Source: Chondrosia reniformis
Taxonomy: Eukaryota > Porifera > Demospongiae > Chondrillida > Chondrillidae
Assembly (NCBI GenBank): GCA_947172415.1
Contig: OX359189.1
Coordinates: forward strand, 8,384,501 to 8,448,500
Reading direction: 5' to 3'
DNA length: 64,000 nucleotides
Position 1 is the first letter of the stretch. Every line of letters starts with the position of its first letter. Made by a program: the position numbers and the translations under genes. Positions 15,273 to 64,000 of this stretch are shown here, piece by piece. The notes beneath the pieces were generated by a model that worked only from the letters and a program-made list of their open reading frames with translations, did no database searches and was not told where the DNA came from.

Positions 15273-18200
15273 TCAGTCTTTTCGAACATGTTTCAAGCGT
15301 GCAATACACAATAGAGAACACGCTATCAGTAGCCAAAGTACAATTGGTAATGTAAAGCCAAGGGAAAGTCCAAGGGTAAGTTTTGAATTGTCTACATTGT
15401 AATGAACAGAAAAAAATATTAAATAAATGTAATATGTATACATAAGATATACTAGACTAGCTTACCTGCAGTTGTCTTGTCTTGTCTTGTCGTTAGTTCT
15501 ATACTAACTACATGTAATGTGTCATTTCTGATAGATGGATTCTCTTTACAAAAGGCTGTTAGAGCTACATCATAAGTACCATCATCAAGATTAGTGATAG
15601 TGTAAGAAGTCTCAGTTGTGTCTGCTTTCACTGATGTTGATTCATCTTTCTTTTTCCATATGGTCTCAAATGTTGTTGTACAATTGACAATTGTGCAATT
15701 ATTATAGTGAACCCATGAAAGTGTTATTGTACCAGGAGATGTATAATACACTATGTTGACTGGTTGGAAGATATCTGTATATGTACATATTATTTGAAAG
15801 AACAAAAAGCTATATATGTACTTCATATGCGTACACATACTATACATGGAATACTGAAATTTATATATATACATATACACCTACGCATATATATGCATAT
15901 ACACATATAAGTAAATGTAGATATTAGTTAAATGCTATGGTTAATAGCCTCATTCGGTTAATTGTATAAAAAATCAAAACATTCAAAAAATGAAGTTAGA
16001 AGTATAGGGATGGCCATGTTGCAGCTACAGCCATACAGAAGTGTATATTGAAATTTAAATGATAGCTGAAGTTAGGATGGGGAGCCCAAACACAGATCTA
16101 GAAATGATGTGTATCACATAAATTTCAGCATTTCACTTCTGTATGGTTATAACCTTATTACATAATCACTGTCTTGCAGTCAAAGAGAATATACAGAGCC
16201 AGGCCAATAAACATTGAAACACATTTAGGCATCTGTAACAGTATACTTAAACGACTGCAAAGAGTATATAGATTATAACTGAAAATGATAAAAACATTGA
16301 ATAGAATGGCTAGGTTTTTTGGCCAAGAGAGTACTAGCTACCGTACTTTCTGATAAATAAAGCAATAATCGAACCACAAGTAACCATTCTCAAATTATAT
16401 CATAAAGAGGGAAAATCATGAAAGAATTAATTAGTCTGTATATAACTAAAATGTGTACCTCTTGCTTTGACTGTCACAGGATTGCTCTTTTCACTTATAT
16501 ACACAGCTGCAGGTGAATTTGCATTAATGTTGCTGCTATATATTGCAATGCACATTAGAGAAGTATTGTAGCCTGTAAAGTCATCTCTGGTGATTGAAAT
16601 GTTAAATGATACACTGCTACTGTCCATATTACTAGTTGTGGCCAATAGTGTATGGTCACTATTGTAAATGCTAATATTCTGAAGATTCCTCTTATTAATT
16701 TGATGCTTACATGAAACTGAAAGATGAGAATCAAAGCATACTAAATATCTTGATGCATCACTTTCCAGTGTACCTATAAAAGTAAAGATGTATTATCAAA
16801 GATATTGTATATGTACGAATAATCTCTAACACCATTTTTCAATAAGCTACTTACGTACATACATCGATATTTTAGAGTAAAGGCCTAATTTCTGTTGTTA
16901 TTGATTAGGTCATAATCTACAGAGATGTTCATAGTATAATAATTAAGCAGGCATCTGGGCCTCATAAAACTATACATTATGAAGTTTTTACATATATAGG
17001 CCTGCTATAATTGAATTTGCATACCTGTATGCATTAATAATCGATGTGATGATCAAACCACAATCAGTCAAACATCATAAGGAGGGGAATCCCGTAGAAG
17101 CAAATGCCGGGAATCAAACCCAGGACAGCTGGTTATGACCACCAGTGCTCTGTCACTGAGCTACAATTGCCACAACAATGCCATCCTCATGTGCTTTGTC
17201 TCTTAAACTAACTACAAGCTAATAATAAGTTGTAATTGATTCACTAATTATAGTGGTGATTCTCTAGCATGTATATAGTACTCAGCACTTAGCCTAAGGA
17301 TTGATGAATCAGCTATATATATATATAGGAGTACCTTAATACAGATTTCCATGTATGAATACTACTAAATATTATATAGCATGAACTGTAAGGTGCATGA
17401 TATAAATGAAAATGCACAGTCCTTAGAAACTCACCTAATCCACTAACGGATATTGTATCATTCTCACTGGTAACATCCACATTCTCTGGCTGATAAGCAA
17501 CAAGCACTAAACTATAGTCAGAACTTTGAAACTGTTCAGGAATATGATAGGACTTTATTGATACATTTGTGGTGGAAATCAAAGTTCCATCACTATACAG
17601 AGTTACATTAAATAGAAAAACGTATTCTCTGTAACAGTCACTGATCAATAAGTGATCCCATGAGAGAATTAGTTGGTTCAATCTATGATGAACTCTAAAG
17701 TTAGTTGGAGTAGGGACCACTAGAAGGCAAAATAGTATTACGTATGTAAATTAGCAGATACAAATAAAATTGAATGACACATCATCAATTACAATGTAAA
17801 TTCAGCACTCTGGGGCAAGGAAGTTAACTCTAATGACATCTTTGTCATTATTAAATTAGGTTATTGATATCATTAAATTTTCTTTACAATTTGTGAATTT
17901 GTATTTAATTTAATAAAAATCAATTCTAGAATATTAAAATATGTACAGTTGATATTGGACTTACTATATGTACTTAAAAAGGAAGAGAGGAAAGCAATTG
18001 GAATTGATCTAATTAGAAATATATCGGGTTATACCTATCAGGTGACATCAGTACATGTGTGTATGATTTTGGTGATCTACTTACTAATGACACTGAAAGT
18101 ATAGGCATTGCTGGTATTCTGCTGTGATGAAACTTTGTTGAATAAGTAACAGGCAAAAGAAACATTTTCAGCTCCAAATTGATTCTTAGTTATACTGATT

Positions 18201-38579: not shown

Positions 38580-40620
38580 TTAAAAGAGCCTATAGGGGAA
38601 CTAAACCTGAAGAGAGCTTTGGATGAAGATACAGGAGTCTTTTCTTCCTTCTTTTCCCTTCTTTCATTTCTTCTCCACTGGGTCAGACAGCCATTTCTGG
38701 GAATTCCACCCTTCATCAGTGATCCTGGGAGTCTCTGTCTTTTTCTTTGTCTTGATCTTCTGTGAATCCTTGGCTCTCTATGCTAAATCTAGGGGCCTTA
38801 TATACACTATTTTGGCGCCAAAAGTTAAATAAGGTGTTAACTAAGACACATGATGAAATTTAATTTTATGAAAGGAATGTAGGTCCAATTAACTTTTATG
38901 AATTAATTATAAATCTATTAGTAATCTTGCTTGTATAGGTAAAACAGAATCAGAGTATTACTATAGACACAAATAGGACATATTACATAAGTCTACCCTT
39001 AGGTCTTCTAGTAGTATAACATTTCTTTGGAGGTGGGGTAACACAAGACAGTCTTTAAGCATACTAGCTACTTTTTGCTTATACTTGATTCTAACTAGAG
39101 GCTGCCGGGATAGGAAGGTTTTAAAGGTTGATTTTAGCTTAAAGTATTTGTAACCCTGCTTAATAAGCCTATTGCATAACTGCAAACTTTTAGCCTGAAA
39201 ACTGGAGAAGTCACTACATATTCTGGAATACCTAATTAGTTGTGAAATAAAGACACCATAGGCTGGGGTATTAGGAATATTACTATCTAAATGGGGGAAA
39301 TTTACTATATCAAAGTTAAAGTCCTCTCGCTTATCATATACTTTAGTGATGAATTGATTATTAGTAACGGTTATATATATCTAAGTCTAAAAAGGGGGAT
39401 TTCCTAGGGCTGGTATTTGTCTTTTTAAGAATATTAAGTTCTTTGGGGTAAATGTCACCACTACTTGACAGTTCAAAATCCTTGTTGTTAATACATAAAT
39501 GGTCATCAATATACCTATAAGTATTGGAAAATTTAATAGCTAGGGCGATGTTAACCTTAAGTAGTCCTTTCATAAACTCATACTCATAGGCAAACAGAAA
39601 AAGATTAGCAACTACAGGGGCACAGTCAGTACCCATAGGGATACCTACACATTGCTTAAATACAGAACCGTCTACACATACATAAATGTTGTCAATAAGG
39701 TAATTAAAGAGCTCTACTAAATGAACAGCTGTGACTGCTTTATTGGAGACGTTGTTAGACCAAAAGGCTTTATCCTGACAGATTTCTATATATTGGGACT
39801 TCCTACAGGTATAGGCACTATGAAAAAGGTTAGTAATCTTGTCTTTAAGTAGGTTATGGGGGATCGCTGTATATAAGGTAGAAAAATCAAAACTAGCTAG
39901 CTGGGCTTTTCTGGTGGGTATAGACCTAAGACTATCTAAGACTTCTAGTGAATTTTCTACTATCCAAAAGGCATTAACACCAGTATTCCTATATATACCT
40001 AGGCAGTATTCTCTAAAATGTTTGAGAATTAGTCTGAGTGCCGAATTTAGAAATCTAGAAAGGGGTTTGGTAGTACATTTGTGAGAGGCGGCTATGAATC
40101 TGTAGCTGTAAGGGTTCTTATGTAGCTTAGGCATCCAGTAAAAGGAGGGAAGGTTACACCAGTCTGGTTTAGGTTCTAAGTTCTCTAGTTTTAAGAAATC
40201 TATGTGTTTCCTAATTAACTGTTGGGGTTCTACTGTGCATTTAGCATAAGTGGAGGTACTGCCTAGTTCTTCATTAATGATTTGTCTATAGTAGGACTTA
40301 CATATAAATATTATATTATTAGATGCCTTATCGGCAGGGGCTACTGAGGATTTGGTATACAATTTAGACAGCTTAGAGATCCTATCATTAATTTTCTTAA
40401 GTACAACATTTTCCCACTCACTAAATACAGAAGTAGATACATTTTCTCTACGGGCCCAAGCGATCTTATATTTTCTAAGACCTTCCTTACACATTTTTAA
40501 AGCAGCTACCCAATTAAAGTTATTAGGTTCTCTAAATTTTGGTCCTTTCTTAAGAAGTTTTCTAAGTTTTGGGTTACTAACAATATGTATATATACTGAG
40601 TCAAAAGATGAACCATCCAA
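38580..40620 (-). mobile_element. Penelope-like reverse transcriptase element
   Basis: A 419-codon open frame (39361-40620) encodes most of a reverse transcriptase. It has A-S-F-D-F-S-T-L-Y-T in the finger/palm region, G-I-P-M-G-T-D-C-A-P followed by L-F-L-F-A-Y-E-Y-E, and the catalytic Y-I-D-D with H-L-C-I-N-N. These are typical of Penelope-like elements. The frame breaks at 39360 and continues, shifted, to about 38961 with thumb-like sequence. I see no GIY-YIG endonuclease downstream, so it is endonuclease-lacking or truncated. The 5' end abuts palindromic-repeat sequence (CATCCAAAGATAAGTTTAACC). The 3' flank (38580-38790) contains a hammerhead-like core and recurs in part at 52270-52420. 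Confidence 0.85.
38685..38740 (-). ncRNA. Hammerhead-like core in Penelope element 3' flank
   Basis: On the minus strand CTGATGA (38719-38713) is followed by a 15-nt segment with GGG/CCC complementarity and then GAAA (38697-38694). This order matches the hammerhead core. Hammerhead motifs are established in Penelope-like elements. Helices I and III are not obvious, and the partial copy at about 52380-52405 has a degenerate core, so activity is uncertain. Confidence 0.5.
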
Positions 40621-41204
40621 AGATAAGTTTAACCAGTTATATTAGAAGAAATTGTTATATAATTATGGTCAAACATGGCTGACATGTTGCATTGATGTAT
40701 ATACGTACACAAAGTTGAAAGGAAAAACAGCTTATTAATATTTTTTCACTTTCAAATTCATTGAGCAATCTGATTGACTGGATTAAAACGATGGGATAAC
40801 GTGCAAAGTTAGCCTGACCATGTAAAATGTATGAATAGTAAACAGAACTGTTACAATTTACAGCTTCATTTTGCCTCAAAAGCATTTTTATTCAGTTATG
40901 GTGACAACTAATTATGTAACAATGGTAAGTGAAGGTTTTGAATACATAAAATAGCCTTATAATGTATTATATAATGTTTGCTTCGGGTACAGTTTAATAG
41001 GAAATCTCATATCTAACCTTTCTCTTACTCAAAATATCACCAAGGACCCTTTAAATTTACTTAATTTGCTGTCTAACCTATTTCTATGATGATGTGTATG
41101 TATATATGTGTGTTTGTCTGCATCTATGCATGTACGTATCTGTACATCTGTTATTAGAGAGTGTGATTGATAATATATATATAGGGTCACTGGTCAGATA
41201 AAGC

Positions 41205-41480
41205 AACCTAATGCATAGCACATTGCTACCTCTCAAATGGACTCATACCAAGATCTGTTTTGAAGACCTCTCCTTCACCTACAACCTCACAGGACTAGCT
41301 ACACCAGAATGTAGTAAGACTGTCATTACTAATGAGACAGAGGTTGTCATTTGTTCAAGAACTGGATATGAGATTAACATATTTAGAGATATGAAGACTA
41401 AACCTGTCCATGGAGATTTGATAACACTAATTTGTAGGTATGATATTACAGAAGAAGTAAACAAAATCTTTGACCCTAAT
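41205..41480 (+). pseudogene. Fused FN3-Ig fragment of a receptor
   Basis: The sequence matches the FN3 exon at 29986-30261 (L-P-L-K-W-T-H, C-F-E-D-L-S-F-T-Y-N-L) with small deletions. At about 41407 it jumps without an intron into the Ig exon sequence (H-G-D-L-I-T-L-I-C, T-E-E-V-N-K), then decays. The junction lacks intron sequence, so it arose by deletion or via a partially spliced copy. It is non-functional. Confidence 0.8.
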
Positions 41481-41589
41481 AGTCTTAGACAATCCCATTA
41501 CACCCTACCAATTTTTGTGACTAATAAGCCAATCTGGCTGTGGACATTTTGTGTACAGATAATCACCGCATAGATATAACAAGTATGGC

Positions 41590-43630
41590 TGACGCCCCCC
41601 TAATTAACTCGAACTACTTGGCCGCATCGTTGGGATGCCATTGCCACTATACCTCTCATCCACAAACTGGACAAGTTGAGCCAGGTAAAGCAAGTATGGT
41701 TTTCAGATGATGCCTCTGCCGGTGGCCAACTCCATCAGCTTAAACATTGGTGGGATAAAATGGAGGAGATTGGACCAGACTTCGGTTATTATGCGAATGC
41801 CTCAAAGTCATGGCTCATTGTTAAGGAGGAACTTATAGCCCGGGCTGCTGAACTGTTTCAAGGTACTGATGTGCAGATTACCAGAGAAGGGCAGAGACAT
41901 CTAGGGGCTGCACTGGGGTCTCAGACCTTTGTTGAGACATATGTGACGGGCAAGGTTCAGGAGTGGGTAAGAGAAGTGGAGCAGTTGGCAGCTATTGCCA
42001 GAAGCCAGCCGCATGCAGCATACGCTGCTATGACACATGGCCTCTCCAGTAAGTGGACGTACTTGTCGAGAACGATCCCCAACATCAGTGACCTCTTTCA
42101 GCCTCTTGAGAATGCCATTCGCTACAAATGCTTACCAGCTCTCACAGGTAGAAGTGCCTTCACGGAACAAGAGAGAGACCTGTTAGCACTTCCCACTGGA
42201 CTGGGTGGCCTTAGTATTCCCAACCCCACCAAGTCCGCAAACTTCATGTTTGACAGTTCACAACAGATAACAGGACCACTGACGGCGCTCATTCTTCAAC
42301 AACACCAAACCTATCCTTCAAGGGTAGAGAATGAGCAAACCACTGCCGTGAACAAAGTCAAGGCTCAGCGACGCCGTAAACAGAATGCTGAGGCTGCCTT
42401 ACTGCGCAAGAACCTTTCCACTGATCTGCAGAAGTCTATGGATTGTGGCAGTGAGAAGGGTGCATCTAGCTGGCTAGGAGTGTTACCTCTAACTGAACAC
42501 GGGTTCAACCTACACAAAGGTGCATTCCGGGATGCACTTAGCCTACGCTATGGATGGAAACTGACCCACCTGCCAGGTAATTGTGTCTGTGGGAAGCATT
42601 TTATGGTGGAGCATGCTTTGAGCTGCGTACATGGTGGATTTCCTTCACTCAGGCATAATGACGTGAGAGACATCACTGCTAACCTCCTTGCAGAGGTCTG
42701 CCACAATGTTGCTGTGGAACCGGATCTCCAAACACTCTCAGGAGAACAATTCCAGCACAGAACTGCGAACACCGAGGATGGGGCGAGACTGGACGTGCGT
42801 GCACAGGGCTTCTGGGGGGACAAGCACTAGGGTGCATTTTTTGACATAAGGGTCTTCAACCCTTACGCACCAAGTAACTGTAAGTCCACCATGGAGTCAG
42901 TATACAGGAGACATGAAAGAGAGAAGAGGCGCTGCTATGAAAGGAGGATCCTCGAAGTGGAACATGGCTCGTTCACCCCACTAGTCTTCTCTGCAGCGGG
43001 TGGGATGGGCACAGCAGCAACAGCCACATACAAGAGATTAGCATCCTTCCTGGCAGATAAGCATGCACAGTCATATTCAAAGACCATGAGCTGGATCCGA
43101 TGCTTGCTGAATTTCTCCTTGCTGAGATCGGCCATCATGTGTGTTCGCGGTGCACGTTCCACATCAAACAGGGCCTGCCGAACAACTGCCCTCTGTGAAG
43201 GCCAGCTTGATTTAGTGGCCATGGCCAGTGAGGGTATGATCTCCAACTGTTAGAAACAGACACATGTAACACAATCTGTACTATTGACAAACATGTTTCA
43301 AGTTATTTACCATGTCATCATTCTCATTATTGTTTACAATGCTTGCTGTAATTCAGTTATCATTATTATTGTTTGTTGTACCATGTATTGACATATAAAT
43401 TAAGTGTTACAATAGTTGCGTATGAACTCGTATTATACATATATCGACGTATAAAATAAGTGTTATAATAGTTGCGTATGAACCCATATTATATATAGAT
43501 ATATATATATAATACTAATACTACTACTACTACTACTAATAATAATATATCTTTCCGTAACATGAAGCCGTACAACATAATCGGCAAATGAAAACAATAT
43601 AAGGGGCGGCCTGCGGCAGCCCCTAAAAAG
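41590..43630 (+). mobile_element. 5'-truncated LINE-like retroelement
   Basis: Reading begins just before W-F-S-D-D, the catalytic reverse-transcriptase motif, so fingers and most of the palm are missing. The frame runs 41676-42830, is interrupted by one in-frame TAG (42828-42830) and continues in the same frame to 43253. C-terminal features include a Cys/His finger (C-V-C-G ... H-A-L-S-C-V-H-G-G-F), L-R-H-N-D-V-R-D-I, and F-F-D-I-R-V-F-N-P, possibly a PD-(D/E)xK-like nuclease region. The higher GC content contrasts sharply with the host DNA. The 3' region (43410-43630) has ATACTACTACT and a GC-rich hairpin, and recurs inverted at 60755-60960. The exact class is uncertain. Confidence 0.75.
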
Positions 43631-43639
43631 AAGAAATGG

Positions 43640-43680
43640 CTTCTCACCTCCATATTTGGTAACATAACAATGGCTATTTT
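43640..43680 (+). promoter_or_regulatory. Conserved pre-leader block
   Basis: CTCACCTCCATATTTGGTAA precedes CATAACA, about 100 bp upstream of the leader ATG at 43748. The block at 48547-48576 is nearly the same and that at 32069-32095 is related. It sits directly right of the retroelement end, so it survived the insertion. It is a candidate shared promoter or 5' UTR element. Confidence 0.45.
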
Positions 43681-43747
43681 TAGAAACCTGGGCTATTTTA
43701 AGAAGCGATTGAACAGAGATTTCGGCTGCCGAGATATCCGACGCACA

Positions 43748-45383
43748 ATGTTTTTCTACGCAATTCTTCTTTGTTTAATTTTAGTGGCCGACCGTAAGTT
43801 CGAATATCTAAGATATCTCTTTTTTGTTTTGTTGACAATTTATTTACAATACCTAACTGAACCTTCCGTATATCTAGCCACTACTAGTACTGTTACACTC
43901 ACTGCTCCATCAAGTCCTCCTTGTTTTGGTCAAACCTACAAGTTAACATGTACACATCCTGTACTTGATGCTGATACTAATGTAAGATGGGAGAGAAATG
44001 GAAGTGGATTTAATCCTCAGTCTACTCCTAATCATGATTTGAATGTTGATCCTACTCCAACTACTACTACTCTGACTATCACTGTGACCAGAGAAGAGTT
44101 TAAGAATAAAGTGTACACTTACAGATGTATTACATTTGATAGTAATCTTGGTTTCATAAATGATCCAAATAGAGTCATCAGTAATGAAGTTACTGTAGAT
44201 CCACCTGGTGAGTGATGTTATATATGGTTTTGATGCTACTGCTGACCATATTAGTAGTCAGTTCTTAATACCATTTCCAATCTACTTCATAGAGAGACCT
44301 TCAAATCCTCAACTGCAATTACAGAGTCCCAACATGTTGTTAGTGCAAGTAGACAAAGTGTGTTTTGAAAATGAAAGCTTTAGATATGACATTAGACAAT
44401 GTGGATGTGTCCAGAGTAATGGAATACAAAACCTAACAAACTGTATTGAATATCACCAGAGTAGTGGAGAGTTTTATCTTGACATGAAGGATAATAGTAC
44501 TACTTATAATGTTAGCTGTATAGTTACAATGGAAGGTAACATTACATTGAACACTGCCACCATTCTGGTCTCAACATTTAATAATGGTAAGATTACACTT
44601 TAAATAATATCACTTTTTATCTACCAATCATGGATTTTACTAATTGTAGGTTTCAGTATTGTAGATTCCTGCACAGAGATGAATCCAGTATCCAATGGAG
44701 AAGAAGGTATGTGTATATAATTGTGGATAATGTTTTTATTCATTCATTCATTCAGATGACTCTTAATTCTTTCATTTAACATAGAAACTCTCAATGTAGT
44801 AGTTGTTGTTGTCGGGATCCTATTTACACTAGTTCCACTGCTAATAGTGATAGTACTAGTTGTGTTAGCTATTTTCTACCGCAAACAGTTACACTCCTGG
44901 TACAGACATTGGAAGTCTAAGAAATATCAACCAAAAGATGATCCCAAAAAGACAACTGAAGTGGTAGTGTTAAGTGACAAGAGGCCAATCACACTCACAA
45001 GTGGCTCTGAGATTGTGACACCGAACAGTTGGTCATTACCTAGTTCCAGTGTAAGTTCCAGTGTAAGTAATGTGTATAAATGATGCATGCATTCATATTT
45101 GAACATGTGTACATCATTCTCTGTGTTATAGCAACCTGATAATGTAAAGATATCTGAAGAAGAGAATACAGTGACTATTGAACAGGTAAATGGACTGATT
45201 TCATATCAAAGCATGTTTATTATTGAAATGATGGCATTGAAGAGTCTAACACTACTTACATATTACTCTATGTGTTTGTATTTAGGAAATGTGTGTAGGA
45301 CGTCCATTAAGAAGAAAGGTACAGAATCATTTAACAACTGTATTAGCATGCCTAACATATACTTTTGTTGTTAAATATAGTGA
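43748..45383 (+). CDS. Ig-FN3 transmembrane receptor, short cassette
   Basis: Exons are 43748-43793 (leader, ATG 43748), 43878-44207 (Ig), 44293-44586 (FN3), 44650-44706 (linker), 44785-45062 (TM and proximal tail), 45132-45185, 45286-45318 and then a TGA at 45381-45383 opening the next exon. They give 364 residues. Ig: L-T-C-T-H-P, V-R-W-E-R and Y-R-C-I. TM: a V/I/L run followed by Y-R-K-Q. The stop replaces the arginine codon that opens the same exon at 50277, truncating the tail; later exons (45502-45529, 45608) remain recognisable but unused. The TM exon ends in two tandem GTAAGT donors 12 nt apart. The leader intron is short (84 bp) and open in frame. The leader and Ig exons are also in phase with the cassette at 46070-48172. 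Confidence 0.78.
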
Positions 45384-52789: not shown

Positions 52790-55349
52790 TTAATGATGAC
52801 GTGTGACATCCTCTTAAGTGTATCAAGTGGCAGAGAATAATCACATGCTCTTATTCAACTAACATTTCATTTTAGTGCATATAAATGTAATAGTTGTATA
52901 TTTCACATATAATAAGGACCACTATACCTATTATGGCAATGATGTCAAACTGGTACAAACTTTGTGTTGTTATAATGTTTTCCTTCTGAATAATTATATA
53001 ATTTGTATTGCATAAGCAAAGTCTCGTACAAATAACTCATTTGTCTTTGCAGACCCGAATTTAACTATACATACGTACGTATGTACATACATACATTCAT
53101 TGAAGAAGTCTTTTTATACTATGTAGTTATACGTACTTTACACAGATGCTTTGAATTGAATGCGAGTACTTTCAATGGTGTATAAATCCTTACTAAATAT
53201 ATGAACTGAATATGTCTAATAATCTTGCTGGAATGGGATTATACAATGCTCCTTGAGTTTAGAGTTTAGATTTAAAAATTTGAATTATAATCTAGAATTT
53301 TGTATATACCTATAATAATGTGATAGGCTAATGCAGTTTGTTTATATGCATTTGTGGGGTAAACACAAGGTTGCTCCCAAGTGGTCTCATTCCAATTGCA
53401 TATGACTCAACCCTCTGACCACAAGGGAAAATTGTTTAACTCACTTGTTATTGCTTTCATAAATAGGGGATGATCCGACCTTGTATGTCATCTATACAGC
53501 ATACATACATAACCCTATAGATACAGTGTAAAATATATTGGTAGTTTAATTGCTTATTTTGCTACCAGTTTAATGGGATTCCAAGGCATATTGATTAGCA
53601 ATCCATCTCTAAAGTGTATAAACATATTATTCTGCATTCTACATACCATGGATCTTTTTATTTACAGTACTGAGAATAAGAGTTAATTGCATAGTGCATA
53701 CGTATATACGTATGCCTTTAAATTTGCAATGGCTATATATTATGATGTATGTATATATGTATAAACATATGGATATATTCTTTAAACAGTAGTGGATAGA
53801 GAGGGGGATTGTAGGGTAGTGACGTCGACACTTCTTTTTTCTCAATTCCTTTGCCCATTTTGGTGTGTATAAAGTCCGGAGTATCTGTGAGCTAGGTAGG
53901 ACATATAATTCCGATCCCTTGCTATATTAAACCATGAATCTGCCCCTGCATGTATTAAACCATATACGTATACGTATGTACACTCTTACCATATGAGCAA
54001 GAATGAAAAATATATACAAGTCATATAGACACACTTGCTGCACAGACAGTATATACGTAAATTAGTTACATATATTGGATAATAGCATATTCACATATAT
54101 ATCTGGTACAAAGTCTAATGCAGGACCTTTATATATATATATTGATATGTACGTATATCCATATAGGAAGTATAATAGTCACCCAATATACGTACGTATG
54201 TATATTCTTACCATATAGTTACCTAGGTAGTATATGAGATGTACATCTGTTGCTAGGGTGTGATATACGTACTATATATGGGAGTACACAGAATATCTCT
54301 TCTCAGGATCACATTTTACATTATACTTGGAACTTGGAATTAGGTACATTACTTGGAATGTGCTAGCTTGGTGTTAACATTGTGGTTTTCATGTATATAA
54401 CTTGGGAAATTACTACTTGATATGGTTTCTCTTGGGAATGATGGTCCTTCCAGGAATCTTGGGTAATTATTTCTTAGAAAGGACACCTGTTACCAAAACA
54501 TCTACATATTAGGTTTAGAATGTCAAGCCTACCTACTGTATATAACATCTTAAAAAGGATGTAAATGTTGTTACTATTCTACACATTCGTTCAGATCTTA
54601 TTACAAAACAGATACATGCTTTCAAAAACAAGTTGTAAGATTAGCATTGCATCTTTACAATGTTTTAAAATTTTACTCTGTATTCCATGTACTGTGTCTG
54701 TTACGGGTTAATGCACATTTCTTTGCAAAGGCTATGTACGTTTATAGGCTATACGTATATGATAATCCTTAAACAGGGGTGGATCCAGAGGAGGGTTGAG
54801 AGGGTTCTCCTCATTGCAATAGGCACGCTTTTCCTCTAAGTCACTAGCAGCATGTCTTTTTCTCAGAATTGATCTTTTGGCAAATCTATTTCTTGGAATG
54901 AGTATAATAACATGACCTTGAGGTTAACACCTAATTGGTATTGTTTATGTTTGGCTTCCTTTCAGGAATCTCCCCTTACTGAAATTCATTTCCAAGAAAG
55001 GTTATAATATCAATCATAATAAGAATAACATGAATGTATACGTATATCTATACTTGTTTACAGCTGATTATACAAACATCTAAAAAATTAAGCTATGTAT
55101 ATGTTTTGCTGGTCTCTTGTAATGATATGATATACAAATTTTAATTTGAGCACACATATATTATTGAATGTTCAAAGTTTATTTCAAGATACTGTCCATT
55201 CTGTGTGACAATAGAAGGATTAAGTATCATGTTATTTCACATATATACAGTACTGTATAACTTTACAAAACTACACGTAGACATGTAATATATAATAATT
55301 GTTAGAGTTAATATGTACTGTTCATGTTTATCTAATAAACTGTCCCCAC
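52790..55349. other. AT-rich intergenic region between convergent genes
   Basis: This is the gap between the plus-strand cassette and the minus-strand RING gene, which converge here. No exon is supported. There are many TATACGTATA-type palindromes and two loosely related blocks (around 53760-53850 and 54775-54835) with GTGGAT-(C/A)-GAGAGG. On the minus strand AATAAA at 55183-55178 is a possible polyadenylation signal for the RING gene. Confidence 0.5.
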
Positions 55350-58300
55350 TCAAATCAACTTGATCATCTTCTCCTCATTGCAGTAGGTACACTTCTCCTC
55401 TTCAGCTCTGCAAGTCTCACAGACCTGATGTCCACAGACAGGGGCAAATGCAACTGGTCTGTCTGGTCTGAAACACTTTTGACACAAACTTATGAGACAT
55501 ACTTCAGCACACTTCTTACAAAAGTGCTTCTTTTCCTTCTCAGGAAGAGACTAATAGGGGAGAATAATGACAAACTCATAATAATTAAACTGGCTTTTGT
55601 AGTTTATTTTATATACGTACGTACACTATATACGTAGGTTGCAATATATACTGTATGTACGTACCACAGTGACAACGAGTACAGTAGTCTCGGGTTCCAC
55701 TTTGTAACTGCAGAATGGACATTCAGTTGTTGTCTTTGCTGTCACTGAACACACGGTATGTCCACATGGTAGAACTGTGTCACTCAGACTGGCTCCATCG
55801 CATACTTTACATTCCTTGGACTTCTGTTGTGCAGCACAACCATTAGTACAACATCTGCATGGCTGCAATAAGAATCATATAATTTCTATACTTTAAGATC
55901 TAAAGCCAATCTTAAAGCATCGGTATCATCATCATTGTTCATGGATATTACCCCACCCATCTTTATATATAATGTCTTCATTTCTTCATTACCTCATTAT
56001 AGATCACGTCTAACATTTCATTTGGAAGGTGAGTTGGAAATGTAGCATTGAAAGATCCACCCTTGCTACCATTTCCTTCCACTTTCTGACCAACAAATAC
56101 TTCTGCATATTGAGTGTTACCAGTTTGGCAATTGTTATTCACTTTATTTTGACCATTCTCCAATGAGTTGTAAATACCTTGTACAGACTAATGAGAATAT
56201 AATTGGATGTTTAATTTTATAAATTAAATGATACATACGTAATTGAGCATCCATTTATGTATAAGAAAAATCTGTAATAGTAGCTATTCAGAATTTGCAG
56301 CTGTTTCTTATACAGTTTTATATTGAAAGGGTACAAATTTGTACACTTGTATAAGAAACAGTGTTAGCGCTAGCTGACCAAATTCTGAATATCTAATATG
56401 TAAGATTTTAAGGATTTATACCAGATTGTGTTGAATGCAATTATATATATACATACTTCTTCATTAGTAACTGCATTGCTATGCTTTCCTTGTCTCCTCT
56501 TAATACAGCCAAATATAACAGCAGATGCAATGGCAATGGCAATAATTAAAATGGCTGTCACAACTGGAACAGCTATTTCAACAACTGGTGGTGAGTTATC
56601 TAAAGGATATATTATGCAATTAAAATGTTTTACCCAATGTGTTAAAAACAGTTTAGGAATTCAAAGCTTGCAAAAGTAGCTAGCTTTATGGGTCTTGTTT
56701 ATATTTATATACATACATATAAGTATGTACTTACATATCTTAGGGATGGTACATCACCTTCGCTTTTTGAGCAGTTTGGTTTTATTTCTTGGTCTAACGT
56801 TTCAAGCCTGGGGATCTTCTTCAGTTAAACATTTTTAAATGCTCAAAAGTTGAAGGATGTACCATCCCAAAGATAATTTAAACGCAGTTTGAAGGAATCC
56901 TTATTTCTTTCGTACTTAATTATATACAAGTGAACTTTACGTATATATATGTATATGATAAGCGCACCTGAAACAACATTAACTGAAGGTTTTAATGACT
57001 GAATAGTGACCATGTTACTTTTTTCCATTCCTCCACTTTTTAGTTGCAGTGCACAAACAAATATATCTCCATCTTTAGCAGCAATGGACAGAGTTGTCTG
57101 TTTATTTTGCCTCTTAACAAATTCATCATTGTACTTCACAAATTTATCATCATTCTTCTTCCAAAAGGTTGATGTTGAATTGAAGGCTTTGTCATTTCTA
57201 TCATGATGCTTGCATGTGAGTTCCGTTTTGTTACCATCAGTGCCAGTTTGCTCTAGTTTCACATTCTCTATATATGAATACAATCAAAAAGAAAACAACT
57301 TTAAATTAAGATATCTAATTTCTAATAAATAATAGACGTACACAATAATGCCTTCAAGCAATTAATATGAATATTACTTATTGTACATATATAACAATGT
57401 AAGTCGAAAAAATTGCCATCAAATGAAGGATGTTGGGAACACGAATCGGGTCAATTTTAAGCTTCTATATTATAATATAATACTTCAAAACTACAATTGA
57501 TACATATTCACATGTATGTATACACCAACCTAATGTAGTAATCATCAATGGATAAGGTTCACTCTTCACAGTTCCATTAACAGCTCTAATAGCTATAGTA
57601 TACTTTGTTTTTGGTACCAGTTCTTTAATAGTAATGTTATGATTAGTGGTGTTCACTGTTAGTACAGTTTTGACATCATTTTGTACTTCTATCTCATATG
57701 TTATAGGATCAAAACAGACATCATCGTGTTGCCAATTAAGTGAGATGGAATCATTAGTTTTAGAGTATGTAACATTTGATACTGAAAGTGGCATCTCTGT
57801 AAAAAGTACAAAAGTACATTTTCTTGTAGAAAGAATAAACATAATACTTATCCCATACTATAATATAAGTATACCTGTACACATAGTTACAGACTAAAAC
57901 ACTATATCAGAGATCTGAATGGCGGATCAAGTACTCACCAGGTGGGTCTACAGTAATTTTATTACTGATAGTTCTATTTGGATCAGATAAACCAACATTG
58001 AGATCAAATGTAATACATCTGTAAGTGTATACTTTATTCTTAAACTCTTCTCTGGTCACAGTGATAGTCAGAGTAGTAGTAGTTGGAGTAGGATCAACTT
58101 CATCATGAGTGGTACTAGCTGATGTACCAAATCCAGTTCCATTTCTCTCCCATCTAACAAGTGTATCAGCATCAAGTACAGGATGTGTACATGTTAACTT
58201 GTAGGTTTGACCAAAACAAGGAGGACTTGATTGAGCAGTGAGTGTTACAGTAGCTTCAGCTAGCGTAAGCAAATAATTAAGTCAAATTATGAACTTAATG

Positions 58301-58574
58301 TAAGATAGATACTATAAATTATTCATTATAACCTTCACTTACAGATTGAAAGAAAGAATTAACATGGCGTAAGGTATAGTACTGGTGTAAGTAATTACAA
58401 ATTATATAACACATGTACAGACTATTTCTATTTTTAAAGCTTATCCAGAAAACCTTACTATATTTATATACTAATAAAATATTTTCCACATGGTAGAATT
58501 AGCTTACTTTGCATTCCCAAAAAGACCCCAGGGCTAAATAGGATGATAGCAATTGTTATAGTATTGATCATCAT
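55350..58574 (-). CDS. Ig-FN3-Ig receptor with cytoplasmic RING finger
   Basis: Exons are 58508-58574 (leader, ATG 58574), 57939-58259 (Ig), 57530-57796 (FN3), 56968-57267 (Ig), 56457-56599 (TM), 55993-56187, 55665-55862 and 55350-55550 (TGA). They give 563 residues. The first Ig matches the plus-strand Igs (L-T-C-T-H-P, V-R-W-E-R, Y-R-C-I). TM is Ile/Ala-rich then K-R-R. Exon 7 has a Cys-rich start and C-K-V-C ... C-G-H-T-V-C ... C-P-F-C, a RING-like domain lacking one ligand. Exon 8 has C-Q-K-C, 12 residues, C-G-H-Q-V-C-E-T-C, 6 residues, C-T-Y-C: a complete C3HC4 RING, the catalytic module of many E3 ubiquitin ligases. T-Q-Y-A-E-V in the juxtamembrane tail fits a TxYxxV switch motif. Cytoplasmic exons are all phase 0. 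Receptor-linked ubiquitination is inferred. Confidence 0.85.
56735..56895 (-). repeat. Palindromic repeat with hammerhead-like core, in intron
   Basis: A copy of the 4425-4640 family in the intron between the second Ig and TM exons of the RING gene. On the minus strand CTGAAGA (56824-56818), GATCC...GG and GAAAC (56803-56799) followed by GTT preserve the core order. Outer blocks GGGATGGTACATC and GTACCATCCC are complementary. Confidence 0.6.
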
Positions 58575-62514: not shown

Positions 62515-64000
62515 CATAAAAAGTAATTAGTAGTTGTTTCATTTATCAGTACAAGCTGAGAGTCTGAGACCCAGCCCTATTCCAGCACATGGGAGGAGCC
62601 ATTTTAATTAAGGGGCAAACATGTACAGTAAATATAGCAATATTAATTTACATTCACACTCACACAAATCTGATGCCACAACAATTGCATATAAACATAC
62701 GTAGAACCCCATACGTCAATAAGTTTGATTGCTTTCCTTCTAAATGAATCTTGATTACCAATACATTAAGCATATTATTGAAGAAGTTACAAAAGATACT
62801 AAACTGGACCCAAGACTGAATAATAATAATAATAACTATTCACCTTGTGTAATTCCCAATAATCACTTGCATTATAGGAGAAATACCTTTACACGATAGA
62901 TTATAATATCTCACTTTGGGAATTTCATAAGTTTTTTTCCTAAGGGTCGTTTTAAATTCTAGCTAATGAAATTGTGATAAATAACCACAAAAAATAAACT
63001 TGACCCATAGCTCTACAAAGTTATGAATAACTGTGCTTGTAGGAGGGGAAGTAGATTGTTGGCTACCAAATAATCATGCGTAACTATACACACACATATA
63101 TGTATAGAAGGAGTACATATTTGTGGGGGAACTTTAATAATACTTACTATCATGTAGTGTCTAGCTATATAGGGTGTAGCATGGAATTTAAAGGAGGTTT
63201 AATTTCCAATTAGAATATTCAATTTTCTAGTGCTAAGCATAACAAGATTCTTAGAGGGGTTTCTGAGGATCCTGGAAACTCCTTCAGGTCTCTTCAGAAC
63301 GTGTATCCATCGAGATATTTCACTCCTAGAGTCACCTGATCCGCAATTTACAAGCTTTATAAACAATCTACCTAATTATCTGGGGAGAAAATGTTCAAGA
63401 ATCTCCTGGATCACTAATAGACTGATTCATCCCAATGCGTTTCTTCTACAGACCATTTGGCGGCGGCCATATTATAATAAATGAATACAATTAGTAATTA
63501 CGAGAAAAAACCCTATTACATAACACAATTTACATTTTAAATGACTCAATGAGATCTAAATTCAATGAATTATTATACATAATTTGTGATTTGAGATGCA
63601 TAACGGTAGATTTATATAACAGAGAGGATGGTGACAGTTCATAATGGACCAAGTACATGCATAATTTGCTAATTAAACTGATAGCCTTTTTTGGCCTTTA
63701 AGACATAATATGATATAAACATTAGGCATATGTGCACAGTGTGGTACGTACAATGTATATAATAAGCTCACTGAAAACTACGTACGTATATACATATACT
63801 AATTAATGATGAAAAAGTCTGCAATGTACTTAAATGTCGATTTAGATCTGTGATCATGACTAGTGAATATAATATATACTGATTAATATGAAAGGTAAAT
63901 CTTCATTTGATCCACTACATAGGAAAAAATATAAAGTTAATACTTTCATTATAATATTTTTGTACCTTCAGATCAATCGACTTTTTCTCCTCACAGTGAG
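62515..64000. other. Mostly non-coding; possible short minus-strand first exon
   Basis: The less AT-rich patch at 63260-63475 contains a minus-strand ATG (63470) in a GGCCGCC context, giving M-A-A-A-K-W-S-V-E-E-T-H-W and a stop at 63414. It could be the first exon or 5' end of a gene reading left, but no downstream exon is recognised. The rest is AT-rich with TACGTA palindromes. Confidence 0.25.

Follow-up and report, generated by a model that had tools for sequence, protein, structure and literature searches.

A sponge Ig/FN3 receptor gene with a predicted tandem RING tail in a cluster of related receptor genes

The question raised by this locus of Chondrosia reniformis is whether a single gene joins an Ig/FN3 cell-surface receptor to RING-type units in its cytoplasmic tail, and whether such a receptor would be coupled to ubiquitination. 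The window, i.e. the whole stretch of 64,000 nucleotides that was analysed (C1:8384501-8448500), was studied together with the genome, searched over 117,379,552 bases in 15 contigs. The reading favoured here, with a probability of roughly 0.5 for the whole of it, is that of a clustered sponge type I Ig/FN3 receptor whose tail, made of a tyrosine-motif segment (Y-segment) and a tandem RING pair, would be ubiquitin-coupled, the target gene being a partner of intact paralogues.

Rebuilt from the sequence, the target gene (G1) comprises eight exons on the minus strand between 58574 and 55350, encoding 563 codons and a stop without any internal stop codon. All seven introns are of the GT-AG type, with phases 1, 1, 1, 1, 0, 0 and 0, and the eight phase-consistent exons proposed in the initial annotation were thereby confirmed. 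The joins 56457/56187, 55993/55862 and 55665/55550, which that annotation had singled out for confirmation, are GT-AG in phase 0 and their equivalents recur in two paralogues. The domain order is leader, Ig, FN3, Ig, one transmembrane (TM) segment, tyrosine-motif segment and two RING-type units. The features of the target and of the neighbouring paralogue G2 are as follows:

58508..58574, minus strand: exon 1, leader (MMINTITIAIILFSPGVFLGMQ), with hydrophobic residues 1-21; the leader exon of paralogue G5 has an equal position and phase
57939..58259, minus strand: exon 2, first Ig domain (Ig1), phase 1-1, assigned by the family profile
57530..57796, minus strand: exon 3, fibronectin type III domain (FN3), phase 1-1, Pfam PF00041 at 1.3e-10
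56968..57267, minus strand: exon 4, second Ig domain (Ig2), phase 1-1, assigned by the family profile; no counterpart in the RING-tailed paralogues G4 and G5
56457..56599, minus strand: exon 5, stalk and TM segment followed by basic KRRQGK, phase 1-0, assigned by hydropathy
55993..56187, minus strand: exon 6, cytoplasmic tyrosine-motif segment with TQYAEV, and DVIYNE at the exon end, phase 0-0
55665..55862, minus strand: exon 7, first RING (R1), IAP-like, seven of eight ligands, the sixth Cys changed to Thr; Cys-rich PCRCC..GC upstream
55350..55550, minus strand: exon 8, second RING (R2), eight of eight ligands, terminus LI-stop
63966..64000, minus strand: 3' end of the second-RING exon of G2, whose R2 runs to 64157, beyond the window
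beyond the window, minus strand: remainder of G2, with R1 from 64687, then the Y-segment, and TM near 65077

Two introns of the target contain inverted repeats, one in intron 4 (56736-56875, arms of 20 bases, 95 % complementary, separated by 100 bases) and one in intron 5 (56258-56409, arms of 31 bases, 84 % complementary, separated by 81 bases). They are perhaps small MITE-type insertions.

Hydropathy analysis gave a single TM segment at approximately residues 320-354, besides the hydrophobic start at residues 1-21. The FN3 domain was recognized directly by Pfam (1.3e-10), and the two Ig domains taken singly scored below the Pfam cut-offs, at 13.9 and 19.9 bits. Across aligned copies PF00047 was matched by six of seven Ig1 exons and Ig_2 by five of seven Ig2 exons (E<=1). 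When profiles built from seven hand-picked copies each were compared with the PDB, the best 60 of the 502 chains found with the Ig1 profile at E<=1 all bore the names of antibody or Ig-constant chains (best 0.00097), and the majority of the 50 chains listed with the Ig2 profile were named as Ig-fold proteins (best 0.0018), among them titin, IgLON, CADM, DSCAM, NCAM and antibody chains. With a leader, Ig, FN3 and one TM segment all present, the product is predicted to be an IgSF/FN3 type I receptor, the Ig call resting on the family profiles. The earlier proposal that leader, Ig, FN3, Ig, TM and RING tail belong to one gene was supported.

The RING tail was found at seven loci of the genome: the target and five further copies, G2 to G6, on C1 at 8.439-8.489 Mb, and one on C11. 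In three of the seven (target, G4 and G5) an Ig-FN3 ectodomain is joined to the tail, from Ig1 through R2. Measured from the first base of the window, G4 and G5 lie at 88-91 and 99-102 kb, and they repeat the order Ig-FN3-TM-Y-segment-RING-RING with equal phases in equivalent exons. G5 has seven exons (leader, Ig1, FN3, TM, Y-segment, R1 and R2), 483 codons so far and a splice donor after R2; G4 shows the same order from Ig1 on (418 codons), and no leader exon was found for it. All 18 introns that separate the modelled exons of the target, G4 and G5 obey the GT-AG rule. Since G4 and G5 repeat the exon order and phases, the Ig-FN3-TM-RING fusion is probably real. The Ig-FN3-Ig ectodomain that had been paired with the RING in the initial annotation holds for the target itself, but the other two RING-tailed genes are Ig-FN3 without a second Ig, and their FN3-TM introns, where Ig2 would be, measure only 119 and 152 bases in G4 and G5. 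Their FN3 domains reached 20.1 (G5) and 17.9 bits (G4), with the Pfam cut-off at 25.

The remaining RING-tailed copies look incomplete or decayed. In G2 the TM segment, Y-segment, R1 and R2 follow in order and no ectodomain was seen; in G3 and G6 nothing but R2 was found, R1 not being seen. The C11 copy (L021, C11:3864731-3867862) duplicates the G4 region on a different chromosome and resembles it downstream of the gene as well; its FN3 and R2 frames are broken, and the upstream DNA that was read contains no Ig1.

Two motifs are common to the Y-segments of the target, G4 and G5, namely YA[ET] and, at the end of the segment, [IL]YxE. The ITIM consensus is [SIVL]xYxx[ILV] and that of the ITSM is TxYxx[VI]. 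By these patterns the target has one ITSM-like motif, TQYAEV, the G5 tail one ITIM-like motif, IAYATI, and G4 none; two further matches to the patterns in G5 lie outside the tail.

The tail of the target matched zf-C3HC4_3 of Pfam in two stretches, with 26.6 bits for the whole protein (cut-off 27) and 34.4 bits for the tail alone. Taken singly, R1 scored 27.7 bits in the genome search (30.4 bits for R1 of G5) and R2 scored 23.3 bits, below the cut-off of 27. The G2 tail exceeded the cut-off for the same family (30.4 bits); whole G5 gave no zf-C3HC4_3 match at E<=5 and only RING_XB3 at 0.17, and in whole G4 both zf-RING_5 (18.2 bits, cut-off 27.9) and zf-C3HC4_2 stayed below their cut-offs. A search of NCBIfam with three tails at E<=1 gave RING_SCO0854 as the sole match, at 0.36 and far below its cut-off. 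The C3HC4 regular expression matched once in the window and eight times in the 111.5-kb cluster, and never in 100 dinucleotide shuffles of the window.

The description of one incomplete and one complete RING proved exact for the target copy, R2 having the spacing C-x2-C-x12-C-x-H-x2-C-x2-C-x6-C-x2-C and all eight zinc ligands. R1 has Thr at the sixth zinc ligand and so falls one short of eight; Cys is kept at this position in four of five aligned copies. R1 of G5, G2 and G4 retains every ligand and CPxC, and both RINGs are intact in these three copies. Among six aligned copies of R2 the sole gap is ligand 7 of G6 (the C11 copy, its frame being broken, was left out). A CxKC pair upstream of R2 is kept in six of six aligned copies, and both RINGs have extra conserved Cys residues close upstream. 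The R1 profile, built from five copies, matched MIB1 RING3 and BIRC7 at 1.5e-8, and nearly all of the best 60 of 126 chains were RING proteins by name; R1 of the target alone matched BIRC7 at 2.5e-6. R2 matched solved RINGs at best in XIAP, at 0.17 as a single sequence and 0.32 as a family profile, and both in the target and in the family it should be regarded as weakly RING-like.

The C-terminal position of the RING, also claimed initially, is true of the target and possibly peculiar to it. A splice donor directly follows R2 in six of six other copies. It has been lost in the target (55350-55360), as a result of which the frame stops after two further codons, LI. No exon following R2 was found in the other copies: the downstream DNA matches only between recent duplicates (G2/G3 and G4/C11), the remaining matches being short and AT-rich. 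Given the donor in the other copies and the R1 ligand in most of them, the ligand loss in R1 and the C-terminal position of R2 in the target seem to be secondary. On the 3' side of the target, a minus-strand ORF at 54732-54923 (LEEKRAYCNEEN) resembles by eye the second-RING end (AEEEKCTYCNEEK) and is perhaps a relic duplicate of it.

Ligand and Pro positions in RINGs matter for E2 binding. The ligase reading is less secure because R1 of the target lacks the sixth Cys and the complete R2 is weakly RING-like. An alternative, which is possible and should be taken seriously although it is not the favoured one, accepts the receptor as described and holds that the tail RINGs would have no ligase activity and would recruit signalling proteins, serving as a scaffold or dimerisation module in the manner of TRAF or BARD1. 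The missing sixth ligand in R1 of the target speaks for it, as do the lack of Pro between the last two Cys of R2 (CTYC versus CPFC in R1) and the weak similarity of R2 to solved RINGs; it is opposed by the complete ligands and CPxC of R1 in G5, G2 and G4 and by the fact that the best matches of the R1 profile are known ligases. As the RINGs of G4 and G5 are intact, the RING-tailed group may plausibly have ligase activity. For the target alone such activity is uncertain and the role of a partner is favoured.

Synonymous and nonsynonymous divergence (dS and dN) was computed for four of the seven RING loci (G1, G2, G4 and G5). Between G5 and G2, R1 gave dS 0.41 and dN 0.08 and R2 gave dS 0.38 and dN 0.07, i.e. 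dN/dS of about 0.2. The target compared with G2, G4 and G5 showed dN of 0.31-0.46 with dS of 1.86 or saturated for R2, and dN of 0.60-0.69 with dS of 2.26, 2.42 or saturated for R1. By this codon comparison the RING exons are shown to be under constraint.

The ectodomain has a different history. The Ig1 exon of the target has at least 111 matches in the genome at E<=1e-8 (150 of 184 candidates scored). Identity to it reaches 60 % or more in at least 65 of them, a count that takes in the target exon itself and some short fragments. The best 60 of the 111 matches all reach this identity, and 53 of them are located on C1 at 8.41-9.45 Mb; close copies of the Ig1 exon in the genome number about 60. 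Of the first Ig domain, 85 % is shared between the target and one RING-less member of the cluster. Locus L040 (C1:9.3965-9.4045 Mb) contains a distal gene, L040a, which has the order Ig1-FN3-Ig2-TM and a short tail with NPAYIPIE and TYVNL; a search of these 8 kb for the RING gave nothing below E 0.29. Compared with L040a, the target showed dS 0.08 and dN 0.08 in Ig1, dS 0.60 in FN3 and dS 0.65 in Ig2. The corresponding dS values against its neighbour L040b were 0.24, 1.21 and 0.54, and against G4 and G5 dS was 0.36-0.38 in Ig1 and 1.6-1.8 in FN3. L040a and L040b differ from each other by dS 0.11 in Ig2, 0.13 in Ig1 and 0.82 in FN3. Ig1 is by far the least diverged ectodomain exon in all four comparisons of the target (L040a, L040b, G4 and G5). 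This suggests that Ig1 has recently been exchanged or converted, with gene conversion or exchange of exons acting across a distance of almost 1 Mb. Such closeness is not confined to Ig1, as Ig2 also shows it between L040a and L040b. More generally, the uneven divergence of exons points to exon exchange within the family. Since the target ectodomain is closer to that of L040a, and G4 and G5 have no Ig2, the target looks chimeric, with an ectodomain resembling the distal non-RING genes and a tail of the local RING type.

It could be argued from this that the target is a decaying chimera in which a distal-type ectodomain was recombined onto a RING tail that is now relaxing. Both the loss of the R1 ligand (one of five aligned copies) and the loss of the donor after R2 (one of seven) occurred in the target, its ectodomain resembles that of the distal gene more than those of G4 and G5, and incomplete or decayed copies lie nearby. 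We consider this unlikely, as the 563 codons contain no stop or frameshift, R2 keeps all eight ligands, and dN is well below dS in R1 and R2 against the other copies, though this constraint is not assignable to the target branch. It is very improbable that the Ig/FN3 receptor gene stops after exon 5 or 6 and that the RING units form a gene of their own downstream: polyA-signal-like words do occur between the TM and the last exons (at 56215, 56148 and 55608, among 11 in the 3.7 kb scanned), but there is hardly space for a promoter in the introns (269, 130 and 114 bases), the exon of R1 opens at a phase-0 acceptor and lacks its own Met, and the arrangement recurs in G2, G4 and G5.

According to the favoured reading of a receptor with a ubiquitin-coupled tail, the N-terminal Ig domain would be the exchangeable recognition part and the Ig/FN3 part would bind a cell-surface or microbial ligand. 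Engagement would lead to clustering of the receptor, and Src-type kinases might then phosphorylate the YAEV/IYNE tyrosines of the tail. The RING pair would recruit an E2, leading to ubiquitination of the receptor, its neighbours or bound SH2 proteins, by which the signal would be tuned or the complex removed. The target would pair RING to RING with the intact paralogues G4 and G5 rather than act as a strong ligase alone; it is a likely partner because its R1 has lost a ligand. Extended to the cluster, the proposal becomes tentative, and we put it forward with some doubt: a putative recognition cluster would hold receptor and ubiquitin ligase in one polypeptide, with an exchangeable Ig outside and a tandem RING that sets or ends the signalling of neighbouring tyrosine-motif receptors, degenerate members such as the target serving as partners or dampers.

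Several known systems share part of this design. The PA-TM-RING ligases (RNF43/ZNRF3, GRAIL) have a PA ectodomain and one RING of another type. They are, like the target, single-pass proteins with an extracellular recognition part and a cytoplasmic RING, whereas the target has an Ig/FN3 ectodomain and a tandem RING pair with an IAP-like R1. The target was rejected as a member of this group, as a PA domain was not among its Pfam matches at E<=10. The vertebrate KIR, LILR and NITR are tandem IgSF families with tyrosine-motif tails that recruit a ligase from the cytosol. Separate ligases such as Cbl do in other animals what the RING pair is proposed to do here, tuning the signal or removing the complex. 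Tandem IgSF genes and tyrosine-motif tails are common to both sides, and the RING tail is found only in the target, as to our knowledge no KIR, LILR or NITR tail carries a RING. IAP and MIB, whose RINGs are the likeness found for R1 of the target family (BIRC7 and MIB1 RING3, profile at 1.5e-8), are cytosolic proteins with BIR or ankyrin parts, neither of which was matched in the target by Pfam at E<=10. Class I TRIM proteins have an N-terminal RING, a B-box and a coiled coil; the target was rejected as one of them, its RING units being C-terminal and a B-box not being among the Pfam matches at E<=10. At the same threshold no kinase domain was matched, and the target was likewise rejected as a receptor tyrosine kinase; in the cluster (C1:8.36-9.45 Mb) no kinase tails were found at E<=1e-10 among the 134 of 1104 candidates scored.

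Nearer to the target in the kind of receptor, the sponge TIR-Ig receptors combine an Ig ectodomain with a signalling domain in the tail, which is TIR there (PMC8242945, PMC12909245) and RING in the target. A cytoplasmic TIR was not among the Pfam matches of the target at E<=10, and it was rejected as an IgTIR receptor. In Botryllus, the fester/FcoR receptors are clustered and carry YxxI/L/V motifs, and each adjoins a HECT ligase gene (PMC12065747). They are thus like the target in clustering, in tyrosine motifs and in a ubiquitin ligase tied to receptors, a likeness of the receptors by description; the ligase is a separate HECT gene there and a RING inside the receptor in the target. Published work mentions Ig adhesion molecules of sponges, Botryllus receptors next to HECT genes and Ig-TIR receptors of sponges; a receptor that itself carries a RING is not mentioned in the available portions of these papers (PMC11999971, PMC12065747, PMC8242945, PMC12909245). 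No Ig-TM-RING family was found among the matches listed from the literature searched, which mostly leaves out subscription-journal papers, and within this scope the initial statement that no family of such architecture had been described still stands. The receptor is best viewed as belonging to a known kind, and its RING tail as a new type.

Should the tail prove active, surface recognition would be linked to ubiquitination with no adaptor in between, in animals only distantly related to vertebrates. In a review of Botryllus histocompatibility, Cbl acts with clustered immunoreceptors, and Cbl and receptor-adjacent HECT ligases are proposed as possible tuners of immune or allorecognition thresholds (PMC12065747). 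A receptor with a built-in ligase would allow this threshold-tuning idea to be tested in one protein, and the cluster offers natural variants in the form of intact, ligand-lacking and RING-less members.

Much of the region from 2000 to 53000 of the window is occupied, on both strands, by further Ig/FN3 receptor genes. YAAI-, YVTI-, YADI- and NPAYVPLE-like tyrosine motifs were noted in its plus-strand ORFs, and no match to the RING tail was found in this region. Long ORF fragments on the plus strand within 40500-43350 resemble pieces of mobile elements, and the 4-kb block 40001-44000 has the highest G+C content in the window (0.408). At gathering score, Rfam matched the window just once, with a tRNA gene on the minus strand at 17099-17170 (RF00005, 43.7 bits).
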